From contig SCHM01000001.1 of assembly GCA_004123355.1 (NCBI GenBank), positions 2,224,001 to 2,288,000 of the forward strand: DNA of 64,000 bases. The letters run 5' to 3'. The notes below the pieces were generated by a model. That model was not told the DNA's origin. It did no database searches and saw only the letters and a program-made list of their open reading frames with translations. The position numbers and the translations under genes are program-made. The stretch comes from Amphirosellinia nigrospora. Lineage: Eukaryota > Ascomycota > Sordariomycetes > Xylariales > Xylariaceae. Positions 37-2,071 of this stretch are shown in pieces (the first letter of the stretch is position 1; each line of letters opens with the position of its first letter).

Positions 37-482
37 CTAGTCAACAGTGTAGACAGTCGCTTCATCAGCTGAAGCGCGCTTGTCAACAGTGTAGACGGTG
101 GCTTCATCAGCGGAGGCACGCTTATCAAGAGTGTAAACAGTGGCCTCGTCAGCAGAGCCGCGTTTGTCGACAGTATAGACAGTTGCTTCATCCGCGGAAG
201 CTCTTTTATCAGCGGTGCTTTGGCACAAGTAAGCGAACGATGCTACCGATGCAGAATTACAACAAAACATACTAAACTGTCGCTTCGTCGGCTGAACCTC
301 GCTTGTCAACGACGTAGACGGTCGCCTCATCAGCGGTCGCGCGCTTCAGGGGGGTGAGAGCATCTTTACAAAGGTTAACTGGGCACTAAACTGTTGACGA
401 TCTCCTTACTTCTAGCTAACGGAACAGCTGCGACGAGGCAGATGAATTGGGGGAGTAGAGCGAGAAGAGTTGTTGACTTCAT
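37..482 (-). CDS. Kex2-processed repeat peptide precursor (RiPP-like candidate)
   Basis: I reconstruct three exons: 482-410, 363-273 and 217-37. Introns are 409-364 (GTAAGG...AAAG) and 272-218 (GTATGT...AAAG). The result is a 114-residue protein ending at TAG. The first 23 or so residues are a clear signal peptide (MKSTTLLALLPQFICLVAAV). A short spacer ends in Leu-Lys-Arg, followed by six 12-residue units, five of which are followed by Lys-Arg: ATADEATVYVVD, GSADEATVYTAD, ASADEATVYTVD (three times) and GSADEATVYTLD. The second intron splits a Tyr codon inside repeat 2, and removing it restores the repeat exactly, which strongly supports the model. Lys-Arg sites after a signal peptide are the hallmark of Kex2/KexB-processed precursors such as dikaritins (ustiloxin, phomopsin), epichloecyclins and alpha-type pheromones. 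The Tyr-x-Val-Asp end before KR resembles phomopsin-type cores, but this is inference. No UstY-like (DUF3328) gene is visible here; one could lie left of the window. A TATAAA lies near 620-626, about 140 bp upstream. Confidence 0.85.
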
Positions 483-2071
483 GGTGGCCTGATTTAGGAT
501 GGTTTTGACGGTAAATTAAAGTCGGTTTCACGAATTGTTACAGGACTGCGGTTTGTTAGATTGTCGAGAGCAGCTGCTGTTTTCGAATTTTTGTGTTTAC
601 TCGCCTGGTCTTATACTCAATTTATAGAACATGATCTTTACGCCTTATACTTCCATCTTCAATAGCCTGTCTAGGTTCATGTTAAGTTCCTTGAGATGTT
701 AATGCAATGTCATTGCAGATACCTCGTCGGCCTTGTGTCATTTGAAGCTACCGGGGCCTATTCCCGCCGCCTTGTAAACTATCTGCTATCACAACAGCAG
801 CGAGTCCCCGGGTTGAGGTCACCCCCAGTCTCGAATAACACACATCAGCTCGCAATGACGGAGTGTGTGCTGCAATTCTTCTCGTTCAGCGAGATGGAAT
901 CGTCGATGCATAGTAACATGACTACTAGATTGGATAACCCCTATCTGCAGGCTAAAGCCATCTATATGCTGTATGTATGGTAAGCTATGTCCTAAATAAG
1001 CCTCTATATAGCGTAGTATGATAGACAGTGCATATAGACATAACATTACAGCAGCTGGCCTACATGCCTGCTAGCAAGAATAGGGTTCATATTGCGATCC
1101 AATGCTCGGCCATTATGCAGTAATTCTTGTTGTTGGTGAGAAATTGTACTTGTAGGACTTAAGGGGGAACTCCGGATCAAAGGCCTATTGGTTTTACACT
1201 GACTGAAAACACTGTGTGAGGGCTGCAAAAAAAGAAGATTTACCTCGACGATCAGATTATACGTTTTTGAATTGATTACGGAAATATTTGCCATGTTGCG
1301 GACTTTGAGCACCTTAGGTACCTATCTCTGATGCTTGTTAGGTGGATGTCCTTTAGAGTAAGCGGTTACACTAGGTAGGTAGTTAATCCGTATCTAGTTA
1401 GCGCCACATATCTCGACTTTGCGTTGACAAGTAAACATACAATTGTTTATGCTTCCAACTAAAAAATTCTTTTGGTTCATTTATACTTCGAACGACAAAG
1501 AAGATTGGACTGATGAAACGCCGTGAATTGCATCGCTTAGATACCACTTCTACAGAAAGGTGTTGGTATTATTATGGATCGGCTGATCCTAGCAGAGTCA
1601 AGAGCCAGAATGTAGCCGTGCACTCGCGTGTTGGGTGTTTGCATTTGAAACATTGTCACACGGGCAATATGATTCTACAAACAGTAATAGCGGATTAGTA
1701 CTGTGTTGAACGTTCGCTTACCACTCCCTACCAGTCTACGACTTGGTTACAGAGTGTCAGCAGTTTGCACCTAATAACTAACAATTAATAACTAAGACAT
1801 TTTATAAGATGCGAAATGATTTGTTGTTAAGTAATCTAATGTGTTCACCGCGTTGCGGAGGTAATGTCGGAGCTCGGACATCGCTTGCCGCATGCTGCGC
1901 TGGACAATGAGGCAAGCAGGCTGTATCCAACTCACCGGTAAGCTTTTCCGTTTTCTGCTACTTCTTCGTCCTTCCCAAACTTTTTCTGCATTTCTGTTTG
2001 TTCACTACTTTCTGTTGGCGCATCGATTTAGGTAACTTTTACTCTGCATTTGTCTTCCGTCAATTGGCCAC
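483..2071. other. intergenic, no supported gene
   Basis: Only short unrelated open frames are present, without recognisable domains. The block nearest 482 is the presumed promoter of the repeat-peptide gene and contains TATA-like A/T runs near 610-630. Confidence 0.5.

Follow-up and report, generated by a model that had tools for sequence, protein, structure and literature searches.

The left end of the 64,000-nt window (the whole stretch of DNA analyzed here, C1:2224001-2288000, in a genome of 48.1 Mb and 11 contigs) carries an array of near-identical peptide units, and the locus raises the question of what kind of secreted peptide this array would yield: whether it belongs to a described family, and whether its products are plain or cross-linked. 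A first-pass annotation had read the array as an undescribed Kex2-processed precursor with phomopsin-like dikaritin cores.

Gene structure and selection on the repeat units

As read from the DNA, the repeat-precursor gene consists of three exons on the minus strand (Table 1), and its spliced transcript is predicted to carry one uninterrupted reading frame (114 codons and a stop codon), whereas the unspliced frame is broken. Both of the short introns that the first-pass annotation had proposed begin with GT and end with AG, and their removal leaves a single open frame. With intron 1 excised, the propeptide reads NALTPLKR and is alignable with two annotated relatives, P0001 and P0002; with intron 2 excised, unit 2 is exactly restored as GSADEATVYTAD-KR. 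The 114-residue precursor thus comprises a hydrophobic N-terminus beginning MKSTTLLALLPQFICLVAAV, a short propeptide ending in NALTPLKR, and six 12-residue units. Hydropathy of the N-terminus peaks at 2.48 over 12 residues (within the first 30 residues), and this region is conserved in P0001 and P0002. With two introns, one of them within a repeat unit, the gene illustrates how readily gene callers can overlook or shorten loci of this kind.

Table 1. Positions of the repeat-precursor gene, its parts, and the domain matches of neighboring open reading frames
Feature	Position	Strand	Remarks
Repeat-precursor gene	482-37	-	exact limits; three exons
Exon 1	410..482	-	start codon in CCACCATGA context; N-terminus MKSTTLLALLPQFICLVAAVPLAR, hydrophobic and likely a signal sequence
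Intron 1	364..409	-	46 nt, GT..AG
Exon 2	273..363	-	last part of propeptide, including LKR; unit 1 ATADEATVYVVD (340-305) and KR; first part of unit 2
Intron 2	218..272	-	55 nt, GTATGT..AAAG; interrupts Tyr codon of unit 2
Exon 3	37..217	-	remainder of unit 2; units 3-6; KR after units 2 to 5
Unit 3	201-166	-	
Unit 4	159-124	-	
Unit 5	117-82	-	
Unit 6	75-40	-	
Stop codon	39-37	-	immediately 3' of unit 6 Asp
Flavin reductase domain	9 kb left		Pfam
MFS domains	2.4-3.9 kb		Pfam
Pro-kumamolisin activation-domain matches	4.6-6.3 kb		Pfam, below cut-off
Exportin-like match	7.9-8.7 kb		Pfam, weak, below cut-off
Alpha/beta hydrolase	10.9-12.1 kb		Pfam
Sugar transporter	12.7-14.0 kb		Pfam
P450	15.9-16.4 kb		Pfam
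Fungal transcription factor domain	17.2-18.0 kb		Pfam

Units 1 to 6 read, in order, ATADEATVYVVD, GSADEATVYTAD, ASADEATVYTVD, GSADEATVYTLD, ASADEATVYTVD, and ASADEATVYTVD. KR follows each of the first five, and unit 6 runs directly into the stop codon, so that both the earlier count of five KR-followed units and the list of variable positions (1, 2, 10, and 11) hold in the spliced translation; Tandem Repeats Finder gives the array scores of 198 and 218. Near-identical repeats with KR between them are expected of a Kex2-processed repeat protein (KEP), and the spliced gene together with its repeats supports the initial description of a Kex2-type precursor with two introns that would give a set of related 12-mers.

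The repeat array is not a product of chance, and it is under purifying selection at the protein level. Across the 15 pairs of units, codon positions 1, 2, and 3 show 15, 18, and 103 differences, respectively, and variable columns among the six units number 3/12, 3/12, and 12/12 at these positions. The third base thus differs between copies in every one of the 12 codons, yet eight of the 12 residues are unchanged between the six units; the repeats have therefore been selected as protein. A neutral simulation with the same number of changes (a rough test, given its premises of a star tree and of uniform mutation) gave a mean of 10.4 varying residue columns, compared with the four observed, and none of 5000 runs gave four or fewer. 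The differences by codon position agree in direction with this simulation.

Relatives and a published peptide family

Protein searches identified two annotated relatives that share the N-terminus, the propeptide, and the units with the window gene (E=1.8e-31 and 1.0e-30). P0001, the hypothetical protein F4677DRAFT_442973 of Hypoxylon crocopeplum (Xylariales), shows 75% identity across 76% of the query, but its 87-residue model differs from the window gene in having four units and in ending at VDK. P0002 (O1611_g3379), with 79% identity and 82 residues, comes from a record that bears the label Lasiodiplodia mahajangana. Neither model reaches the length of that of the window gene or has a whole terminal unit, and both may therefore be truncated. 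With the N-terminus and units recurring in these two independent records, alongside the spliced frame, the repeats, and the signature of selection, the observation first made at this locus is confirmed as a whole. The protein of P0002 is about as close to that of the window gene as the Hypoxylon one despite its label, Lasiodiplodia presumably being a Dothideomycete; mislabelling or transfer is possible.

Over three protein searches, at least 19 relatives were found at E<=10, a lower bound in that each search scored the 8000 candidates sharing the most words with the query. The more distant of them include proteins from assemblies named Alectoria sarmentosa and Chaenotheca gracillima, which we take to be lichen fungi, as well as many short ORFs from contigs. 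At least one unit fitting the family pattern is present in 18 of them, P0013 being the exception. The pattern held D4, A6, and Y9 fixed and restricted positions 3 and 12, and the invariance of these five positions is in part a consequence of that design. At positions left free, the residue is S or T at position 7 in 30/30 distinct protein-unit pairs and Val at position 11 in 28/30 (both among the relatives listed). The units of the relatives form a series from ASADEATVYTVD through ADADSASVYTVD and ADADTATKYVVD to ADADAATQYAVD, in the direction of a motif already in print. When P0011, whose units read ADADAATQYAVD, was used to query the 48 Mb genome, the sole matches at E<=10 fell at this locus (E=3e-10 and 0.22).

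Several relatives that are short contig ORFs (P0005 and P0015-P0019) have a family-like start (e.g., MHQSTLISLLPLLAALTTAAP..ADADSASVYTVDK) and run on after VDK with V; they seem to read on as if an intron begins at that point. Many gene models of the repeat family are probably truncated. A whole-genome protein search returned one weak match beyond the three at this locus, at C9:638416 (E=0.04), which was rejected as a paralogue: it is a 293-residue ORF that appears to have coiled-coil-like repeats and no signal sequence. A Pfam scan of five family members (window gene, P0001, P0002, P0005, and P0006) gave matches below the curated cut-offs alone, and these were judged to be chance.

The motif toward which the units lead is that of Le Marquer et al. 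(2019), who, in the available text, describe a new conserved KEP peptide of Pezizomycotina with the core DADAATXYV[A/V]D (motif 3), grouped their motifs by manual similarity, discuss this core separately from alpha pheromones, and leave open the cyclisation of Tyr-containing KEPs (PMC6339444). Compared with this published consensus string, rather than with the paper's own proteins, units 1 to 6 agree at 8, 7, 7, 6, 7, and 7 of the 10 fixed positions; none agrees at all 10, and an equal fit was reached in 10 to 68 of 20,000 shuffles per unit. The closest relatives scored, P0006 and P0011, agree at 9/10. Like motif 3, the window units form a repeated core between Kex2 sites, with A, D, A, T, Y, V/A, and D at equal positions; unlike it, they have S/T for the first D and E for the fourth residue (A), and T is commoner than V after Y. 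By sequence, the window gene is a KEP gene related to the conserved Pezizomycotina family of motif 3.

The original claim that the core was undescribed is accordingly not supported at the level of the family, whose core was reported in 2019 (PMC6339444) and is resembled by every unit at six to eight of 10 fixed positions. It stands for the exact unit, which, with its KR, occurs in no paper of the literature searched and so appears new within a family known for some years. The same literature yielded no paper giving a family of the motif 3 type a function and none on a Kex2-processed repeat in Xylariales. The string DADAAT was met, in the text available, in Le Marquer et al. (2019) and one Pseudomonas paper only; the strings DAD and VYT are both absent from the accessible part of a paper on lichen RiPPs (PMC12048977), and a survey of Hypoxylaceae metabolites, as far as its text was available, calls the RiPP clusters ustiloxin-like (PMC8403587). 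The locus adds a full gene model, from a well-assembled genome, to one of the few KEP families reported across genera of filamentous ascomycetes.

A second published group, type G-6 (#13) of Umemura (2020), may be the same family, judging by its description. In the portion of that paper available, G-6 is high in Y with several D, spans genera including Hypoxylon and Chaetomium, and has DUF3328 within 15 genes in 46/49 members; more generally, Tyr is reported in 65.6% of DUF3328-linked KEP repeats versus 38.2% of others (PMC7329392). The window gene resembles G-6 in its richness in Y and D and in the inclusion of Hypoxylon, but differs in that no DUF3328 was found nearby. If G-6 is indeed the same family, a modified peptide would be favored.

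Genomic neighborhood and the dikaritin comparison

Dikaritin precursors such as those of ustiloxin and phomopsin share with the window gene Kex2-separated repeats, a Tyr near the C-terminus of the unit, and, as the hydrophobic N-terminus of the latter suggests, probably a signal sequence. The published descriptions, in the parts available, give EDYXI as the core of ustiloxins and phomopsins (PMC6339444), Y-x-I as conserved in both (PMC7329392), and YVIPID, with Asp as its final residue, as the phomopsin core (PMC7099791). The window units likewise end in Asp but read TVY[TV][VAL]D, and thus contain Y-x-V/A/L-D in place of EDYXI or YXIX.

Nor was a dikaritin-type enzyme found in linkage. The genome contains 53 matches to the UstYa model (PF11807) at E<=0.001 and 65 at E<=10, and none of them, even at E<=10, lies between C1:1,785,704 and 2,895,491, the nearest being ~438 kb from the gene. 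This search proceeded exon by exon with 61 scored candidates, and since only the best candidates were scored, it may have passed over a UstYa gene that is highly divergent or broken into very small exons. The nearest tyrosinase match (PF00264; 30 scored candidates) ends at C1:1,975,164, ~249 kb away. The UstY-like oxidase, tyrosinase, or methyltransferase that the first-pass annotation had suggested looking for was also absent from 40 flanking ORFs scanned with Pfam at E<=0.01 (two ORFs plus 38 of a set of 43, spanning 24 kb on the left and 20 kb on the right), whose domain content is given in Table 1. An HxxHC string in an ORF at window positions 1435-1695 was rejected as UstYa and judged to be chance, as it lies in an 87-residue frame in which PF11807 has no match. 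On the basis of the UstYa and tyrosinase searches and the flanking ORF scans, a linked dikaritin cluster was rejected for this locus. The likeness to phomopsin-type dikaritins is weakened by these results: the Tyr near the C-terminus and the terminal Asp stand, while Y-x-I and a linked UstYa or tyrosinase do not.

A positive control for linkage came from a subset of the genome's UstYa loci (30 stretches of ~3.2-3.7 kb and 13 of 9.9 kb, with some overlap between them), in which two other Kex2-repeat ORFs were found near UstYa matches, on C5 and C4. UstYa-linked repeat ORFs therefore exist in this genome, and the window gene is not among them. The ORF on C4 (L049:2478-2990, ~1.07 Mb) has seven repeats of AQPIWVNELEVTKD..KR and lies ~1.5 kb from the UstYa match with the highest score in the genome, which makes it a candidate UstYa-linked RiPP precursor. 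The ORF on C5 (L003:2947-3495, ~1.79 Mb) has three to four DDSTNWYSDSASGVAESLSK..KR-type repeats and lies ~0.7 kb from a UstYa match.

Two further observations concern the surroundings. One MFS ORF of the window, compared with plasmid records by tblastn, matched distant bacterial transporters only. At 24-30 kb left of the window (C1:2194001-2200000), a block of at least 6 kb has a GC content of 11-15%, with TA/AT of 1.24-1.36 and (CA+TG)/(AC+GT) of 0.17-0.39, ratios that we take to be the signature of repeat-induced point mutation; the adjoining DNA is normal at 42-56% GC. The block is possibly a heterochromatic island or a centromere.

Nature of the peptide products

Precursors of this kind are known to carry a signal peptide, to be cut by Kex2 after KR and trimmed by Kex1, and to have their products secreted; KEPs of Coprinopsis were expressed in Pichia pastoris by Vogt et al. 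(2022; PMC9769878). We infer that the precursor would enter the secretory pathway via its likely N-terminal signal sequence, that Kex2 would cut after each KR, that a Kex1-type carboxypeptidase would trim the KR, and that acidic 12-mers of the type ASADEATVYTVD would be secreted. Because no gene for a cyclising enzyme was found in linkage, these peptides would most likely be linear, and they may act as an extracellular signal or in interaction with other organisms. The calculated [M+H]+ of the linear forms is 1241.553 for ASADEATVYTVD and the isobaric GSADEATVYTLD, 1253.590 for ATADEATVYVVD, and 1199.506 for GSADEATVYTAD. We regard this account, of a KEP gene yielding linear secreted 12-mers with such a role, as the probable one.

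What speaks most strongly against it is the resemblance of the invariant Tyr and of the Y-x-V spacing to cyclised cores. The window gene could accordingly encode a RiPP precursor similar to dikaritins, in which a UstYa enzyme encoded elsewhere in the genome cross-links the Tyr, for instance with the second residue after it. Tyr9 is present in every window unit, and its distance from the Val that predominates at position 11 of the family equals that of Y..I in ustiloxin and phomopsin; the genome's many UstYa matches could supply an enzyme, and type G-6, mostly DUF3328-linked, is possibly the same family. However, position 11 is Ala in unit 2 and Leu in unit 4, the ustiloxin/phomopsin core is lacking, and the wide intervals free of UstYa and tyrosinase matches contrast with the two repeat ORFs that adjoin UstYa matches elsewhere in the genome. 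These data make the cross-linked product unlikely. As the precursor stands apart from UstYa genes, it offers a testable form of a broader question, namely whether conserved Tyr-containing KEPs without a linked UstYa are linear or cross-linked.

The layout of the precursor (likely signal sequence, propeptide, and repeats between KR sites) is also that of sexual alpha-type pheromone precursors. Such pheromones carry W or C, and Ste13 removes X-Ala and X-Pro dipeptides; the window units contain neither Trp nor Cys, and the residues after KR are AS, GS, or AT, so that neither the Ste13 dipeptides nor a pheromone core is found. None of the five members scanned (window gene, P0001, P0002, P0005, and P0006) matches a Pfam pheromone model at E<=10, and the separation of this core from alpha pheromones in the available text of Le Marquer et al. 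(PMC6339444) points the same way, which leaves a pheromone precursor extremely improbable. A structural surface product, like the Rep1 peptides of Ustilago, would be a further alternative to a signal. Rep1 peptides are longer and hydrophobic, whereas those of the window are short acidic 12-mers, and the near fixation of residues among the relatives found hints that the peptides have a specific binding partner. KEPs in such a role do exist, according to the discussion of Le Marquer et al. as available (PMC6339444), but a surface role is very unlikely here.

A more far-reaching proposal is that the family represents an old secreted signal of filamentous ascomycetes, conserved from Xylariales to lichen fungi, in which A3, D4, A6, Y9, and the C-terminal acid are nearly fixed and which would be read by a conserved receptor, the form at this locus being either a plain 12-mer or one with a Tyr-to-Val cross-link made by an unlinked UstYa enzyme; we offer this as a speculative and rather doubtful extension.

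Two results bear on processing to linear 12-mers. The genome has one match to the proprotein-convertase P-domain (PF01483), at C1:7.54 Mb. Unit 6 stops at Asp, the point where trimming of KR would leave the other units, and the sequences of P0006, P0010, and P0014 as listed likewise end in a whole unit (three of the 19 relatives listed, the other 16 not doing so), a pattern that fits the acid as the mature C-terminus.
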